DNA of 64,000 bases, from assembly GCA_040219235.1 (NCBI GenBank), contig JAVJSV010000011.1, positions 434,001 to 498,000 on the forward strand, written 5' to 3'. The stretch is from Rhodospirillaceae bacterium. GTDB lineage: Bacteria > Pseudomonadota > Alphaproteobacteria > Rhodospirillales > Rhodospirillaceae. Both the position numbers and the translations under genes were made by a program. Below the pieces are notes generated by a model. That model was not told the DNA's origin. It saw only the letters and a list, made by a program, of their open reading frames with translations, and did no database searches. Shown piece after piece: positions 31,745 to 53,810 of the stretch (position 1 is the stretch's first letter; the number at the start of each line of letters is the position of its first letter).

Positions 31745-32605
31745 ATGCCCACACGACGCACCGCTCTCTTGGGATTTGGGGCCGCGAGCTTAGCCGCACC
31801 GGGCCTGGCGGTACCCGCTCTTAAAAAAGCTGCATTTGCCGCTGCTGGCACATACGATCTGTCTGACCCTGTTGATGCGGTCGAGGCTTACGCCCGGATG
31901 CGCGGCAATCTGGATGGGACCCCCGGGATGTGGTGGTATCGCGGCAACATGTTCGCCAAACGCCCCGATGACGTGGCCGAGCGTGTCTTAAAGATCGAAG
32001 GCTTTAGCTTCAATCGTCTGGCCCGCCGCGCTGATGGCACGTTCGATCAAATCATGGCCGAAGCGGGATTCTTTATTGACCCTGAGCGCGATGAAATCGT
32101 CGACAGTTGGGTGAACCCACTCAATGGCCGCACCTGTGAACCGGGGCATTACAAATCCAGCCAGACCATCGTTGTCGGCCCCGATGGCGTGTCCGGTTCC
32201 GAGGCGGCTGCCGTGCCGGTGCAGTTTACCGGCACGGTGGAAGCGCAGAGCCACAGCGGTCGCGTCTGGACCACGGAAAACATGGTCACCAAGCTGCCCA
32301 ATCCGCGCAGCGAAGCGGAAGACCCGCTGGCCTATTCCGGCCCAGTGATCACCTTGACCTCGCTGGCCTCGTTCACCGGTCAACTGGCGGATTTGAACAA
32401 TGAAGAGATGGCTTTTATGCCCGCCACACTGCACTTTCAAAACCTCTCGCCGTGGTTGCCGTGGATGAAGATGGGGCAAGACCCAGGGCTGACAACCTGG
32501 CAACTTCTGGGCACCAAAGTGCGTTCTCCTGACGATATGCCCGACCGCTTAAGTCGACGCTTAGAAGCTGACTATCCGGGGTGGCTCGACGATCCTGGCG
32601 TCTAA
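31745..32605 (+). CDS. DUF1838 family protein, Tat-exported
   Basis: A 286-residue protein from ATG 31745, which follows an AAGGATT site; an in-frame upstream start would put the export signal internally. The start MPTRRTALLGFGAASLAAPGLA is a twin-arginine signal. The mature part has MWWYRGNMFAKRPDDVAERVLKIEGFSFNR, FFIDPERDEIVDSWVNPLNGRTCE and YSGPVITLTSLASFTGQLADL, the wording of DUF1838, a family of unknown function found beside esterases and oxygenases. Tat export suggests folding, possibly with a cofactor, before export. The next gene begins 12 bases after the stop and is probably functionally linked. Confidence 0.8.
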   Translation: MPTRRTALLGFGAASLAAPGLAVPALKKAAFAAAGTYDLSDPVDAVEAYARMRGNLDGTPGMWWYRGNMFAKRPDDVAERVLKIEGFSFNRLARRADGTFDQIMAEAGFFIDPERDEIVDSWVNPLNGRTCEPGHYKSSQTIVVGPDGVSGSEAAAVPVQFTGTVEAQSHSGRVWTTENMVTKLPNPRSEAEDPLAYSGPVITLTSLASFTGQLADLNNEEMAFMPATLHFQNLSPWLPWMKMGQDPGLTTWQLLGTKVRSPDDMPDRLSRRLEADYPGWLDDPGV

Positions 32606-32616
32606 TTAATGGGAGT

Positions 32617-33390
32617 ATGATGATGCGTTTTCTGACGGCTACTTTGCTCGTAATTGGGATGCTTATCGCCGCGCCACAGCCGGGTGATGCTCAGGAAAAA
32701 CACCAGGAGAATACGGGTCCTAATATCAATGTGACCCGTGAAATTGTCGGCACGCTGCGGCTGCAAACCAAGTCCGACAAACGCTACCGGGGCGTTGAAG
32801 AATGGCGCTTGTTTGTCCATCCCGACGGCTCCCGCACGATGATGCTCAGCAAAGACTTTATTGCGGCCAATGCGCTGCAAATCATGACGGCCCATGTGGA
32901 TGCGAACTTTCGTCCCATAGATGTTTATGCCACCTACTGGGTACCCGGCGGCTACCGTGGGTCGATCCGGGTTGGGGTAGACGGCTCAAAGCTGCGGGCG
33001 GTCTCCGAAGGTCCGGCGGGTCCCTATGCTGAAGAAGTGAACGTGCCGGAGGAGATTTCCGTGGTCACCCATGGTGAGGCTATGAACGGCTGGTATTTGT
33101 GGCAGGGACAACGGGACGCTGACGGCAATCACCAGGCAACATATTATAATTTCAATCCGGCGGCGGATGGATCTGAATCGGTCCGTGGCCGATTGCATCC
33201 CGCGACGTTCAAATATTTAGGTAATGAAACCATCACGGTTCCTGCAGGCACCTTTGAGACGCAACGCTATTTACTGACCAACATCGAAATCTGGATCACC
33301 GGCGAGCATCGCATTCTGGTCAAACAAGCCATCACTGATGAAGACAAAGAATACGTGCTGACCCATCTCAAAGATGCCGTCGTTGATTAA
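32617..33390 (+). CDS. Exported protein of unknown function
   Basis: A 257-residue protein; three consecutive ATG codons (32617, 32620, 32623) follow GGGAG (32611-32615), the last having the best spacing. Signal peptide FLTATLLVIGMLIAAPQPGDAQ. The mature protein is strand-rich: GVEEWRLFVHPDGSRTM, RPIDVYATYWVPGGYRGSIRVGVDG, and a C-terminal FKYLGNETITVPAGTFETQRYLLTNIEIWITGEHRILVKQ similar in style to DUF3108-like beta-barrel lipocalin-type periplasmic proteins. No enzyme motif is visible. It probably shares a transcript with the DUF1838 gene and meets a convergent amidohydrolase. Confidence 0.7.
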   Translation: MMMRFLTATLLVIGMLIAAPQPGDAQEKHQENTGPNINVTREIVGTLRLQTKSDKRYRGVEEWRLFVHPDGSRTMMLSKDFIAANALQIMTAHVDANFRPIDVYATYWVPGGYRGSIRVGVDGSKLRAVSEGPAGPYAEEVNVPEEISVVTHGEAMNGWYLWQGQRDADGNHQATYYNFNPAADGSESVRGRLHPATFKYLGNETITVPAGTFETQRYLLTNIEIWITGEHRILVKQAITDEDKEYVLTHLKDAVVD

Positions 33391-44934: not shown

Positions 44935-45300
44935 TTATTCGCCTGCTGCGAACTCATCCGCAAGTTTTTCCGGGTCCGTATTCAGGCTTTCGTCTTCGAG
45001 GGCCTCAAGTTCTTGATGAATGATGCGCAGAATGCGGGCGATGTAATCTGCATGCCACTGCTGCCGCTCTCGGGAGGCATCGTCATCGGGCCGGTAGGAA
45101 TCGATATTGGCTTTGGTCACCGGTACGCCATCTTCAAGCAGGCGCTCGACAGTGTCTAAGCGCTCGCGGGTGACAGCAAGCTCGGTGGCTACGGCCATAG
45201 TGATCGACAAAACACGTTCAACGGCAGGATCGTCAAAGAAATAAGGGCGTTTACCTTTTGATTTGGCGTTCGCAAGTTTGTTGACGTCAATATCGGCCAT
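44935..45300 (-). CDS. FFDDP/RERLDTVE small protein, copy 1 (function unknown)
   Basis: A 121-residue, highly charged protein with no signal peptide or membrane segment. The N-terminal half has KGKRPYFFDDPAVERVL, then TELAVTRERLDTVE near 39-52, then an acidic helical C-terminal half (RERQQWHADYIARILRIIHQELEALEDE). It is paralogous to the protein at 46729-47088: both share KGxRPxFFDDP, TExxVxRERLDTVE, and a helix ending in RI-hydrophobic-x-E. It looks all-helical and perhaps dimeric. In each copy the gene lies directly downstream of a methyltransferase of one particular family, so it may be a partner subunit or regulator. Shine-Dalgarno AGGAAC before the ATG. Confidence 0.8.
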   Translation of the reverse strand: MADIDVNKLANAKSKGKRPYFFDDPAVERVLSITMAVATELAVTRERLDTVERLLEDGVPVTKANIDSYRPDDDASRERQQWHADYIARILRIIHQELEALEDESLNTDPEKLADEFAAGE

Positions 45301-45334
45301 TGTGTGTTCCTATAGTTCCTTCTTTGTGTGCGAC

Positions 45335-46609
45335 TTATTTCCAACCGCCGAATAAATACCAGCGCTCGCCTTTATACTTGGAATCTTTCCCGTCGCCACA
45401 GTCTTTCGAAAGATCGGCAGGGTCACCGTTTCCATTCGCTCTCGGACCTTTATGCAACTCCGCTGAGTGACGTGACATGGTGCTTGACCACGGCTGGAAC
45501 TGTCCTTGCTCGATATCAGCTTCGGTGCCGCCTTCAAACATGTGCTCTTTAGAAAAGCCCGCTTTGGCCATAACGTCGAAGACATCCATGACATGCAACT
45601 TTGACCAAAAAGGCTCATTGTTGTACCAGGCATCCCAGTCGCGGGTGAATTGATCGTACAAAGACGTATCCGGCGTGAAATTAGGCTGCTCCACATTCAG
45701 GCAGAGCCCCCCAGGAGTCATCATCGCGTATATCTTTTTCATCATGCTTTGAAAGGCTGAAGTTGAGGTTTCATGCCAGAACATGGTGGTCTGTACCCAG
45801 TCGATGGAGTTGGGCTCGATATCCAGTGCGTCTCCATCAGCCTGAATAAAACGTACGTTTTTGTATTCCAGAGCTTGTGCTCGAGCGTGCCCCCAGCGCA
45901 ACATTGGCGCGCCAACATCAACTGCAATTACCTCAGCCTCCGGATAAGCTGCGGCGATTGGCAAGGTGTTGACTCCAATCCCTGCGCCCAAATCCAAAAT
46001 ACGACGCGGTTTGAAGTCCGGTGCATTTTGTTTCACGAAGTTCACAACAGCACGTCCGCCGCCATCTCCTCTTGACGACATCGACCCTGCGGTTGTGACA
46101 AAAATACCAGCTTCATAGTTCACGCCAGCAAGCACATCATCGTCTACAACGCCGGTGTGGTAACTGCCCGGCATGCAGTGATTGTCGACTGCCGCAAGAT
46201 AGCGCGGCACGGTCGTGTCTTTATTCAACAGGAGTGTATCTTTGCCTGTGTTATGCGCTTTGGCGTTGTTCACCAGATTGTCTAACTGGCGCAGAACCAC
46301 ATGCCGGCCAGCTTGTTGACGTTGTTCCATAGTATTGCGCCGAAGTGCGGCCCAAGATTGGTAGTGTGGATCTTTTCTCATCGCATCACGGACCTGCTGT
46401 CGTGTTTCCAGCGCTTTGCCTTGGGTTTTTTGAAATGCCGGCGCAACGCGTTTCTCAAAGGCGAGGCGATTCCCAGGGAATACCTGCTGATTGAGATGCA
46501 CATTGAGGTTGGTCAAAAAATTGAATCGCGCCGTTTCATCGTGGTCTACGGCAGGTGACAGAGGGTGTGTGCTAGAGCGGTCGTAGGTGGGTGGGAGTGT
46601 GCTGGCCAT
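45335..46609 (-). CDS. SAM-dependent methyltransferase with conserved N-terminal domain, module copy 1
   Basis: 424 residues from the ATG at 46609, which has AAGGA eight bases upstream; the ATG at 46630 has no ribosome site. An N-terminal domain of about 190 residues shares FExRVxPxFxKxQG, ETRQ, MRKxPxYQ, a D-x-HCMPGxY motif at 142-150 and a Gly/Ser-rich loop with the protein at 47099-48247. Then comes a class I methyltransferase: motif I RILDLGAGIGVNT near 203-215, AEVIAVDVGAPMLRWGHAR, WHETS and PGGLCLNVEQP, followed by a shared NEPFWS motif. The C-terminal 70 residues are polar. Cytosolic. The DNA-methyltransferase motif NPPY is absent. The substrate is unknown. Confidence 0.85.
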   Translation of the reverse strand: MASTLPPTYDRSSTHPLSPAVDHDETARFNFLTNLNVHLNQQVFPGNRLAFEKRVAPAFQKTQGKALETRQQVRDAMRKDPHYQSWAALRRNTMEQRQQAGRHVVLRQLDNLVNNAKAHNTGKDTLLLNKDTTVPRYLAAVDNHCMPGSYHTGVVDDDVLAGVNYEAGIFVTTAGSMSSRGDGGGRAVVNFVKQNAPDFKPRRILDLGAGIGVNTLPIAAAYPEAEVIAVDVGAPMLRWGHARAQALEYKNVRFIQADGDALDIEPNSIDWVQTTMFWHETSTSAFQSMMKKIYAMMTPGGLCLNVEQPNFTPDTSLYDQFTRDWDAWYNNEPFWSKLHVMDVFDVMAKAGFSKEHMFEGGTEADIEQGQFQPWSSTMSRHSAELHKGPRANGNGDPADLSKDCGDGKDSKYKGERWYLFGGWK

Positions 46610-46728
46610 AGCAGGTATCCTTGCCGTCATGCAGAGTATGAACTGCGAATTGTCAAGGAGTCTAATGCTCGCTCAACACGTGGCAAGGGGGTGCGCGCCG
46701 ACGCGTGCGCTGTATGACTTCGGCGCAA

Positions 46729-47088
46729 TTAGCGATCTGCGCTGATGTTGATGGCTTGCTCGTAGGTTTCCTCGGTGTCACCACGGGCCGTATCTTCAGT
46801 TTCTTCCTGAAACACATAAAAAATGCGGTCCAGCAATTCCTGACGCATGCGTTCCCGCTCTTCGGCGCGCTCGGGAGACGGCTCAAAGGTTTCAATGTCT
46901 TTTTCTAAAAAAACACCTTTTTGAGCTGCTACCGCTTCGACTGTATCAAGGCGTTCACGCATCACCCACATTTCTGTGATCATCGACATCATCATGGCGA
47001 TGAGCCGATCGTTCACCGGATCATCAAAGAATGTCGGGCGATGCCCCTTTGCGGTTTGCGGTACCTTGACTTTAGATGTCTCATTCAT
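46729..47088 (-). CDS. FFDDP/RERLDTVE small protein, copy 2 (function unknown)
   Basis: A 119-residue charged protein paralogous to the one at 44935-45300. It carries KGHRPTFFDDPVNDRLIAMMM, TEMWVMRERLDTVE at about 38-51, a variable KGVFLEKDIETFEPSPE linker and an Arg/Glu-rich helix (RAEERERMRQELLDRIFYVFQEE). No signal peptide. It begins 11 bases after the stop codon of the methyltransferase at 47099-48247, after an AGGAG Shine-Dalgarno, so the pair is co-translated from one transcript. Four Met residues in the MMMSM stretch suggest a buried helical face. Confidence 0.8.
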   Translation of the reverse strand: MNETSKVKVPQTAKGHRPTFFDDPVNDRLIAMMMSMITEMWVMRERLDTVEAVAAQKGVFLEKDIETFEPSPERAEERERMRQELLDRIFYVFQEETEDTARGDTEETYEQAINISADR

Positions 47089-47098
47089 GGGTATTCTC

Positions 47099-48247
47099 CT
47101 ATTTTTGGCCGACCATGAACCAGAACCCCATCATGTTTTTCTGAGCGGTGTTCGTAGATGTGACGGGGGCATGGCCAAAGGGTTCGAGATGTAGTTTAGT
47201 TGATCCTTCAGGCCATCCCGCGTCGGCCATTGCTTTCTCAAGGTCCATATCTCGATAGGTCGACCAAAAGGGTTCATTATTGTTATAGGTTTCGGCATCG
47301 AAAACGGTTTGCCGCCACAAGTCGAAGTTTTCGAATTGGCCAGCCTCTAAGTGGACCATCAGACCACCTGGTTTGAGCAGGCGTCGGGTTTCTTCCAGGA
47401 TACGGGGCACGGCTTTACGAGATGTCTCATGGAAGATGATACAGGAGACAACGAGGTCGAAAGACTCATCTTCAAAGTTTGTCTTTTCCGCGTTCTGCTG
47501 ACTGAAATGGATCGCTTTACCCAGAGACTCGGTTCTTGCATGTGCATACCTAAGTAATGCGGCGCCCAATTCGATGCCGTGTACTTCTGCGTCTGGATAT
47601 GCATCACAAAAGGGGACAGTGTTATTGCCGGTGGCGCAGCCCATATCGAGTATACGTTTGGGAGCGAAGCCGGGGTGCTCCCGTTTCAGATACCCAACAA
47701 TGGACTGGCCAGACCTGTCCCCCTGGGGGCCACCGCGACCGCTGCCATAGATGTAAGAGCCTTTATCGTAAATTGCACCTGCCGCGATATCGCCATCGCC
47801 CAGGTCCGTCGTGTACCCGCCCGGCATGCAGTGGATATCCAAGCTGTCGATGTATTTAGGAATTTCCATATCCGGATTTAGGGTCAGGCTGCCGAGGGTG
47901 TCGATGCTTTGCTTAGCCCGGACCATCATGTCGTCGATCTGACGGTTCAAAGAGTAAGTCACTGACGCCCACATCAATTCCTGGGCGGCGCGCTGGATGC
48001 TGAGGTGCGCCTGATAAAAGGGCTCCTTGCGCATCTCGGTTTTAATTTCCTGGCGGGTTTCAAAGGGTCGGCCCTGTTCTTTCTCGAATCGAGGTGTGAC
48101 TCGGTTCTCGAAAATGACCCGGCTCCCGTTGGACAGGTTACGAATGACACATTCCCGCAGGGTCCTTTGAAAGGCTTGCCTGGCCTTATCATCCGTTGAC
48201 CATTTGGGCGTGATGCCGTGGGTGGCTTGGGGTGGTGGTAGCAGCAT
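47099..48247 (-). CDS. SAM-dependent methyltransferase with conserved N-terminal domain, module copy 2
   Basis: A 382-residue protein with AAGGAG before its ATG. The N-terminal domain (1-190) carries FENRVTPRFEKEQG, ETRQEIKTEMRKEPFYQ, IPKYIDSLDIHCMPGGY (HCMPG at 139-143) and a Gly-rich loop, all shared with the methyltransferase at 45335-46609. The class I fold follows: RILDMGCATGNNTVPF near 198-213, AEVHGIELGAALLRYAHAR, SFDLVVSCIIFHETS, LLKPGGLMVHLE, then YNNNEPFWSTYRDMD. First gene of a four-gene minus-strand row, methyltransferase, small protein, methyltransferase, small protein. It is divergent from the ferredoxin gene at 48427. Substrate unknown. Confidence 0.85.
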   Translation of the reverse strand: MLLPPPQATHGITPKWSTDDKARQAFQRTLRECVIRNLSNGSRVIFENRVTPRFEKEQGRPFETRQEIKTEMRKEPFYQAHLSIQRAAQELMWASVTYSLNRQIDDMMVRAKQSIDTLGSLTLNPDMEIPKYIDSLDIHCMPGGYTTDLGDGDIAAGAIYDKGSYIYGSGRGGPQGDRSGQSIVGYLKREHPGFAPKRILDMGCATGNNTVPFCDAYPDAEVHGIELGAALLRYAHARTESLGKAIHFSQQNAEKTNFEDESFDLVVSCIIFHETSRKAVPRILEETRRLLKPGGLMVHLEAGQFENFDLWRQTVFDAETYNNNEPFWSTYRDMDLEKAMADAGWPEGSTKLHLEPFGHAPVTSTNTAQKNMMGFWFMVGQK

Positions 48248-52814: not shown

Positions 52815-53810
52815 TTAGGAATTAACGCGTATCAACAGGGCAGGGCCGTACATGCGGTCAAGGATATCCCGCGCAGAATCCGGGTTGCCCAGATACCTTA
52901 GGGCCGTGGCTTCACGAATTGGGCGCTTGAGATTTGCCCAGAGACGGCAGAAAGGTCGCGCTGAGAAGATGTCACGTAATCGCGTATTTCTTCTGATATG
53001 CCGCTCTATTTCAACGGCACGGTCAGAGTTTGGAGTGCTGGGTGATCGGTCAGATTTTTTAAAAACCACATTCAGGTGTCCGGTTCCCGGCAAAATAGCC
53101 AAGTCTGTTGCCACTAATCCTGCCAGACTGCCTGCGTAAATCAGCCCGGTATGAGAAAAATTGTGGAGGTGTGCCAAATGGAACAACCGGTGGGGTCCAT
53201 GGTAGCGGGCCTCTACGTTGGGAACTTCAACAATAAGCACCCCCGACTCTGATAGCTGCTGGCCGAGCGCGCGCAAAACATTCACGGGATCAGCCAGATG
53301 CTCGAGCACATGGTGCAGGGTGATAACATCCCACGCAGAGCCGGTTTGAAGCGTGGCTTCCACGGTGCCGACATCGACATCAATTTCATAAGATGTATTG
53401 GAGAAGTCTGCGTATCCACGGTTTGGTTCAATGCCTTTGGCTTGAAATCCTGCCCGTGTCATCAGATAGATGAACTCTCCACCGCCAGACCCAATATCCA
53501 GCACTCGGCCTGCCGGTTGCGCATAGGGCAACAGACGGTCCAAACGCTCTAACGCTCGCAGGCCAGCCCGATAAACGTGTTTTGGTTTTGGCGTCATCAC
53601 GCCTTTATAATCAGAGCGGTAATTGTCCGAATAAAAGGCGTTCAGTTCCGCCGTTGTGGGTTGTGGATTGGTAAAAACATGTCCGCAGTTACGACAGAGA
53701 TCTGTCTTAAGTGGAGTATTATGACGGTCCTTCTGGCCAATACAAATAAGATTCGCAGACGAGCACAGTGGGCATGAGATCGATTGACCAATAAATGTGA
53801 GAGCGCTCAA
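52815..53810 (-). CDS. Zinc-ribbon class I methyltransferase
   Basis: A 331-residue protein. The start is a TTG at 53810 overlapping the TGA of the upstream acyltransferase gene (TTGA), with GAGG seven bases before. An N-terminal zinc ribbon has ISCPLCSSANL and LCRNCGHVFTNPQPT (two C-x2-C pairs, about 13-45). The methyltransferase core is GRVLDIGSGGGEFIYLM, KGIEPNRGYADFS, and WDVITLHHVLEHLADPVNVLRAL, then EVPNVEARYHGPHRLFHLAHLHNFSHTGL. This is the type that modifies sugars or lipids in surface polysaccharide pathways. Coupling to the LpxL-type gene and the nearby glycosyltransferase supports an envelope role. Confidence 0.87.
   Translation of the reverse strand: MSALTFIGQSISCPLCSSANLICIGQKDRHNTPLKTDLCRNCGHVFTNPQPTTAELNAFYSDNYRSDYKGVMTPKPKHVYRAGLRALERLDRLLPYAQPAGRVLDIGSGGGEFIYLMTRAGFQAKGIEPNRGYADFSNTSYEIDVDVGTVEATLQTGSAWDVITLHHVLEHLADPVNVLRALGQQLSESGVLIVEVPNVEARYHGPHRLFHLAHLHNFSHTGLIYAGSLAGLVATDLAILPGTGHLNVVFKKSDRSPSTPNSDRAVEIERHIRRNTRLRDIFSARPFCRLWANLKRPIREATALRYLGNPDSARDILDRMYGPALLIRVNS

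Follow-up and report, generated by a model that had tools for sequence, protein, structure and literature searches.

A putative two-subunit methyltransferase-like enzyme family encoded by diverged gene pairs in Rhodospirillaceae

Introduction

Among described enzymes, NovO, CouO, RebM, AtmM and MitM share a Rossmann core, S-adenosylmethionine (SAM)-binding motifs and a histidine at the HH position of RebM with the methyltransferase-like proteins reported here, but none of them matches the N-terminal domain of around 190 aa that the latter possess, and we know of no small partner protein for any of them. Small partners occur elsewhere: Trm112 is reported to partner several methyltransferases that act on translation components, the MbtH-like proteins of nonribosomal peptide synthetases are needed by a large and diversified family of enzymes, next to whose genes they are encoded, and are able to act in trans, and split borosin-type pairs of ribosomally synthesized and post-translationally modified peptides (RiPPs) consist of a precursor and a methyltransferase with the TP-methylase fold. 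Here, we describe two gene pairs, MT1/SP1 and MT2/SP2, each encoding a methyltransferase-like protein (MT) and a small protein (SP), which lie in a stretch of 64,000 nucleotides (hereafter the window) of a Rhodospirillaceae bacterium (assembly GCA_040219235.1, contig JAVJSV010000011.1, positions 434,001 to 498,000 of the forward strand) and may each specify a two-subunit enzyme from a class I SAM-dependent family that has gone undescribed.

As a small protein SP is reminiscent of Trm112, but it diverges with its own MT and matches no Trm112 model, and since no Pfam Trm112 match was obtained among 24 SPs, a Trm112-type activator was rejected. The likeness to MbtH-like proteins, which serve a different enzyme, is an analogy only, while a split borosin-type RiPP pair was discarded because MT is a Rossmann class I methyltransferase and does not have the TP-methylase fold. 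A role in anti-phage defence was likewise dismissed, the MTs matching PADLOC mad2 only through their generic SAM core (residues 181–299 and 193–319) and the SPs matching none.

Among the matches listed from the open-access PMC literature, which was the scope of the search, no publication on the MT–SP pair was found; in the text of PMC10653915, the term 'methyltransferase' has 0 occurrences. Public annotation labels MTs as 'class I SAM-dependent methyltransferase' or 'hypothetical protein' and SPs as 'hypothetical protein', i.e. the labels hide the pairing, the new N-terminal domain and the expansion of the family.

The two gene pairs

The order methyltransferase, small protein, methyltransferase, small protein on the minus strand, as given in the initial annotation of this DNA, is correct for all four open reading frames (ORFs):

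47099..48247, minus strand: MT1, methyltransferase with an N-terminal domain of ~195 aa and a SAM core from around residue 197, 382 aa (ORF; Methyltransf_25 match)
47663..48193, minus strand: N-terminal domain (N-domain) of MT1 as an alignment row (alignment; AlphaFold2 model for helices)
46729..47088, minus strand: SP1, predicted helical small partner, 119 aa (ORF; AlphaFold2)
45335..46630, minus strand: MT2, second methyltransferase of the family, in another clade than MT1, 431 aa (ORF; Methyltransf_25; tree)
46010..46540, minus strand: N-domain of MT2 as an alignment row (alignment)
44935..45300, minus strand: SP2, small partner adjoining MT2, 121 aa (ORF; alignment)

The genes are separated by 10 bp (MT1–SP1) and 34 bp (MT2–SP2), and pairwise identity is 36% between the two MTs and 29% between the two SPs. 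Since the SAM core match starts at residue 195–200 in MT1 and ~198–212 in MT2, the shared N-domain of ~190 residues was correctly recognized. The small-protein motifs are present as quoted (KGHRPTFFDDP/KGKRPYFFDDP and TEMWVMRERLDTVE/TELAVTRERLDTVE); FFDDP, taken as a shared motif, is indeed found in SP1 and SP2 but is not family-wide among SPs.

Judged by their profile matches, the C-terminal halves of both MTs are class I SAM-dependent methyltransferase cores, as Pfam Methyltransf_25 (cut-off 27 bits) is matched by residues 199–295 of MT1 (77.8 bits, 1.1e-21) and residues 211–308 of MT2 (60.4 bits, 2.8e-16), i.e. in both cases by a Rossmann core above the curated cut-off, and the cores also match Pfam Methyltransf_11. 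No NCBIfam equivalog (CpaM, BioC, UbiE, others) reached its cut-off among the matches listed (best 25 of 52 for MT1, best 25 of 45 for MT2). Within this list, the core of MT1 was best matched by the corrinoid protein-associated methyltransferase CpaM (NF043040), but only over residues 197–298 and far below the cut-off (62.2 versus 180 bits); BioC scored 51.9 bits (cut-off 185).

Neither the N-domain nor SP has a convincing match in Pfam, NCBIfam or the PDB. The N-domain of ~190 residues reaches no Pfam cut-off and its profile gave a best E of 0.027 against the PDB; for the SP profile the best E was 0.0046, over a short stretch of uteroglobin fusions. SP1 falls into no Pfam or NCBIfam family and shows stray matches only, SP2 has only stray Pfam matches below cut-off, and a Pfam scan of 24 SPs returned stray matches to three families at E 0.001 or above. 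The AlphaFold2 models of MT1 and SP1, built from nine and eight sequences, respectively, are of moderate confidence. The MT1 model (mean predicted local distance difference test score, pLDDT, 63.3) has a helical N-terminus, with predicted helices at residues 18–58, 65–72 and 76–117 followed by a conserved P130...H139-x-x-P142-G143 segment, while residues 129–176, spanning H139, score <50. For SP1 (mean pLDDT 68.7), helices are predicted at residues 24–57, 62–66, 72–102 and 106–118. The best-kept SP positions are E39, R46 and E51 (SP1 numbering), of which only R46 and E51 are invariant in 24 SPs, the conserved part being the helical core.

Residue conservation was assessed in 160 MTs, which are not a random sample. 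The SAM-motif glycines and the ribose-binding acid are nearly invariant in this set (G203 in 152/160, G207 in 157/160, D/E226 in 160/160), and outside the SAM motifs P130, H139, H273 and E274 are present in all 160 and E325 in 159, the remaining MT having a gap there. In the alignment with RebM (3bus), H273-E274 coincide with its HH pair, which we take to be catalytic there. The top Foldseek matches of MT are class I methyltransferases, including NovO, CouO, Plasmodium N-methyltransferases, Rv2258c, MitM and RebM; with TM-scores of ~0.4 by query length, these matches cover roughly the core. The methyltransferase-fold cyclase SpnF is found at rank 49.

Pairing and co-divergence of MT and SP

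In an even sample of 385 genomes of the class of the source organism, its own genome included, the MT N-domain was found in 25 and SP in 26 genomes, i.e. both in 23, MT only in two, SP only in three and neither in 357 (Fisher p 1.3e-31). The MT-only matches have E values of 6e-14 and 7e-10, and of the SP-only matches two are weak and one lies in a genome that is 77% complete. A second class (n=321) gave the same picture, with both in six genomes, MT only in none, SP only in two (both weak) and neither in 313 (Fisher p 1.9e-11). Therefore, SP is not usually found without this MT at the genome level.

By coordinates, 27/44 MT matches and 27/41 SP matches are neighbours in the own-class sample, from which five expanded genomes (G000, G069, G200, G298 and G376) were left out of this tally and in which counts are lower bounds because at most 9 or 12 candidates were scored per genome; in the second class, 11/14 MT and 11/16 SP matches are neighbours. 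Several non-neighbour matches are weak or lie on short contigs. The link is weaker at this level than between genomes, and some MTs and SPs are clearly solitary. Even in G069, G200 and G376, 18/22 SPs adjoin an MT, though these genomes hold 148 MTs. In the source genome, 22/44 MTs have a same-strand SP within 166 bp (16 downstream, six upstream, with one SP common to two MTs), while simple arithmetic gives a chance expectation well below one. On plasmid pJE1, the last base of the MT is the first base of the SP. Missed SPs do not explain the unpaired MTs, as a wider SP profile gave SP-like frames near only 3 of 40 of them, i.e. one in L065 that belongs to the neighbouring MT, one at a contig start (L038) and a weak one (L125). 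MT–SP fusions were also rejected, the long SP frames of L108, L119, L125 and L135 each lying in a different frame from the MT.

Sequence divergence points in the same direction. Over 77 pairs, MT and SP distances are correlated with r = 0.82, a value reached in 0/2000 permutations, and a smaller set of 67 pairs gave 0.81. These 77 pairs stem from one-to-one matching with a mild preference for the downstream SP, since pairing by smallest gap, which underlies the 22/44 of the source genome, mispairs locus L146. The nearest MT and the nearest SP fall in the same module in 51/77 cases. SP distances follow the N-domain rather than the SAM core: r is 0.83 for the former and 0.76 for the latter, and the partial correlations are 0.51 for the N-domain after controlling for the core and 0.11 for the core after controlling for the N-domain, with a bootstrap 95% interval of 0.20–0.58 for their difference, which suggests, at the level of sequence, that SP contacts the N-domain. 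The MT–SP pairing is real, widespread and specific; the physical or functional pairing put forward in the initial annotation is supported by the co-occurrence in two classes together with this co-divergence.

Expansion, distribution and origin of the modules

MT1/SP1 and MT2/SP2 are two of dozens of modules in the source genome (3.97 Mb, 21 contigs, 99.85% complete), a scale of which the earlier annotation gave no hint. A genome-wide search gave 26 SP matches and 51 MT matches, 44 of the latter at E 8.1e-20 or better; profiles run on 35 fetched stretches and the window recovered 44 MTs and 26 SP ORFs (25 distinct), while the SP profile run genome-wide gave 28. These copy numbers may be slightly off since the ends of contigs C4, C7, C16 and C21 lie in or beside family members; one SP sequence occurs three times, i.e. 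at the end of C7 (cut), at the start of C16 and inside C7.

Among 41 genomes, i.e. the source genome and relatives, the same 11 carry both SP and the MT N-domain and the other 30 carry neither. Seven genomes of the own genus hold 22–29 SPs and 39–55 MTs each, single genomes of four other genera of the family have SP/MT counts of 12/18, 38/70, 20/32 and 34/63, and three genomes of a distant family in the class (G069, G200 and G376) have MT/SP counts of 64/8, 42/7 and 42/7. At the phylum level (n=398), the N-domain was found in four genomes, the source genome included. The nearest named records are four contigs of Rhodospirillaceae metagenome-assembled genomes (MAGs; 72–87% identity), and relatives with 34–43% identity reside on plasmids of named Novosphingobium, Sphingobium and Sphingomonas strains, which makes the family testable genetically. 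The family is thus patchy in occurrence and strongly expanded in some genomes. Dozens of diverged pair copies in a genome of 3–4 Mb would mean that a sizeable share of the metabolism is devoted to a reaction without a name, within the reach of our searches, and the multiplication of an unnamed pair to dozens of diverged versions in a single genome speaks for a large group of two-part methyltransferase-like enzymes that still lacks a description.

The two modules were first thought to have arisen by tandem duplication of a whole module, which is contradicted by the MT tree and the distance ranks. In a maximum-likelihood tree of 110 MTs (quick method, support by the SH-like approximate likelihood ratio test, SH-aLRT), MT1 is joined first by an orthologue of a different genus (support 100) and next by L017 and L020 (94 and 87). 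MT2, but not MT1, belongs to a 14-member clade with a support of 100, along with members from other families, another class and pJE1. Among the 76 other paired MTs, 47 show a smaller distance to MT1 than MT2 does; likewise, 42 of 76 SPs show a smaller distance to SP1 than SP2 does. Local tandem duplication was therefore rejected; by tree and distances, the two modules are distinct, old lineages placed next to each other. This order of four genes recurs in two named MAGs (L062 and L063) and in another genus (L146).

Export leaders and genomic setting

Some MTs, though neither MT1 nor MT2, start with twin-arginine-type leaders, e.g. MLDRRTLF...AxA. A home-made rule for the twin-arginine translocation (Tat) motif (RR-x-F/L, a hydrophobic stretch and A-x-A) is passed by 47/160 MTs from five genera of the family, a group enriched on purpose by targeted fetches, and by 18/305 other ORFs of the source-genome loci as background. 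In the source genome, the leader-bearing MTs fall within one 14-member clade, of which 13 pass a looser rule and 12 the stricter one that gave the 47/160 (L039 being dropped); the 110-member tree does not include the leader genes fetched later. The SAM motifs are intact in leader-bearing MTs (G203 47/47, G207 46/47, D/E226 47/47), and the SPs beside them carry no leader of their own (by eye, in those read). True export of these members would raise the question of what a SAM-fold enzyme does in a compartment in which no SAM is expected. Between four and six RR-leader MTs lie in tandem arrays in several genomes of the family (L035:6072-11227; L193, L194, L195 and L196), and an RR-leader MT array of the source genome adjoins FecR and a TonB receptor.

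In the window, the four genes are flanked by an alpha/beta hydrolase (Pfam) on one side and, on the other, by a small ORF that by eye resembles a 2Fe-2S ferredoxin, with no Pfam match above cut-off. The wider setting comprises SBP_bac_5 binding proteins, Opp permeases, a VanA-type Rieske oxygenase, a nitrilase-family protein, a GntR regulator and an amine oxidase, and a putative role of MT on a metabolite imported through the neighbouring transporters is possible. A viral scan found nothing.

Neighbours were further compared between 40 target loci of other genomes and 20 control loci. Seven families recurred at the target loci, i.e. hydantoinase A (HyuA; 6), hydantoinase B (HyuB; 6), a polysaccharide-deacetylase-like protein (7), a FAD_binding_4 oxidase (6), MmgE/PrpD (5), DUF1838 (5) and the old yellow enzyme family OYE (5), each with 0/20 at the control loci. 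A catabolic setting is plausible, while a single pathway is not: one common pathway was rejected because LeuC, ICL/PEPM and CaiB failed against the controls and none of the 35 loci of the source genome holds HyuA/B, MmgE/PrpD or DUF1838.

Functional interpretation

What is seen in the sequences is a SAM-binding Rossmann core whose motifs are preserved, joined to a new N-terminal domain, and a small, predicted-helical protein that is often encoded beside it and diverges in step with this domain. We consider it most likely, with a probability of around 0.5, that MT and SP are the paired subunits of class I SAM-dependent enzymes that form a hitherto undescribed family. SP would bind the N-domain and complete, stabilise or gate the active site, in which H139 of the N-domain together with H273-E274 and E325 of the core would act on the substrate. 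The reaction would be methyl transfer to a small molecule, and the paralogues would differ in substrate, often within catabolic gene sets. As MTs outnumber SPs, one SP may serve several MTs in trans in expanded genomes.

Several points weigh against this proposal. The MT–SP complex, its substrate and its activity are inferred from sequence, and the closer tracking of SP by the N-domain may come only from a similar evolutionary pace. Half of the MTs of the source genome (22/44) have no adjoining SP, which, along with the genomes holding MT and SP at 64/8, 42/7 and 42/7, indicates that SP is not needed in cis, and of the 99 SPs at the fetched loci, 22 lack a paired MT, some of these 22 having been fetched for being solitary. 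For MTs that carry export leaders, no SAM would be available outside the cytoplasm. As to the catabolic setting, the neighbour families were chosen after recurrence and none is decisive alone, LeuC (6/40 versus 3/20) and ICL/PEPM and CaiB (3/40 versus 1/20 each) do not differ from controls, and HyuA, HyuB, MmgE/PrpD and DUF1838 are found at 0/35 loci of the source genome.

The two histidines and two glutamates outside the SAM motifs, invariant in the 160 MTs apart from the one gap at E325 and thus kept above the motif glycines, would also fit a repurposed methyltransferase fold, in which SAM is bound or its pocket kept for another reaction, H139, H273, E274 and E325 serve as acid–base or metal ligands and the leader-bearing members are periplasmic. 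The leaders on 47/160 MTs from five genera, which would direct them to where SAM is not expected, and the presence of SpnF in the Foldseek list are in line with such a change of function. However, the leader-bearing group has kept its SAM motifs, H273-E274 occupy the position where RebM keeps HH, and the leader rule is home-made, flags 18/305 other ORFs and was applied to a deliberately enriched group; we regard a repurposed fold as possible, albeit rather unlikely. It is similarly doubtful that we are dealing with a two-subunit SAM-fold superfamily of 40–70 diverged paralogues per genome acting as a substrate-processing toolkit, part of it Tat-exported, whose invariant His/His-Glu/Glu site would work in the periplasm, either turning over no SAM or catalysing something different from methyl transfer.

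Alternatively, SP could assist in folding or assembly, or, with leader-bearing MTs, act as a proofreading chaperone or hitch-hiker, so that it would be required for making the MT while remaining outside the working enzyme. Its small size, predicted helical fold, position near the MT gene and lower number than MTs would suit such a factor, as would the leaderless SPs read beside leader-bearing MTs, but many SPs accompany leaderless MTs, and SP diverges with the N-domain of its own pair, which would not be expected of a general, shared chaperone, so that this function appears unlikely. That SP is the substrate, methylated by its own MT, e.g. at lysine-rich tails, would agree with the genetic pairing and with the Lys/Ala-rich tails of eight SPs; considering that a scan found no such tail in the remaining SPs of the fetched loci and that it is the helical core that is conserved, R46 and E51 being the only positions that never vary among 24 SPs, we judge this very improbable. 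An ordinary tandem duplication of an unremarkable methyltransferase operon, lacking any functional pairing, has in its favour two similar modules side by side, but is hardly credible with these modules in different clades and the pairing recurring in two bacterial classes.

Further observations

A further methyltransferase (Methyltransf_23) is encoded at 52815-53810 of the window, ~4.6 kb from the MT/SP genes and adjoining an amine oxidase, and was not recovered by the family searches. A protein with at best a sub-cut-off DUF3108 match recurs at 32581-33390 of the window and at L021, L027, L029 (three), L030, L035, L105 and L107, with 0/20 at the control loci; one of the four search seeds was wrongly a regulator.

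The Lys/Ala-rich, histone-H1-like tails of the eight SPs are found in seven cases in one family and once in another genome (L168:6779-7384, L169:6720-7325, L170:10511-11071; also L127, L134, L137, L138 and L140). One tailed SP is solo, with no adjoining MT, and is conserved in three genomes of one family; its neighbours are, by eye, a GMC oxidoreductase and an acyl-CoA dehydrogenase/CaiB pair. A similar Lys/Ala-rich N-terminal tail is carried by a hydantoinase B-like protein near an MT–SP–MT cluster (L139:2-1267). Finally, at the start of contig C4 of the source genome (L018:1-242), an ORF of Lys/Ala/Pro repeats runs off the contig edge directly downstream of an SP-less MT and may be the tail of a cut-off SP.

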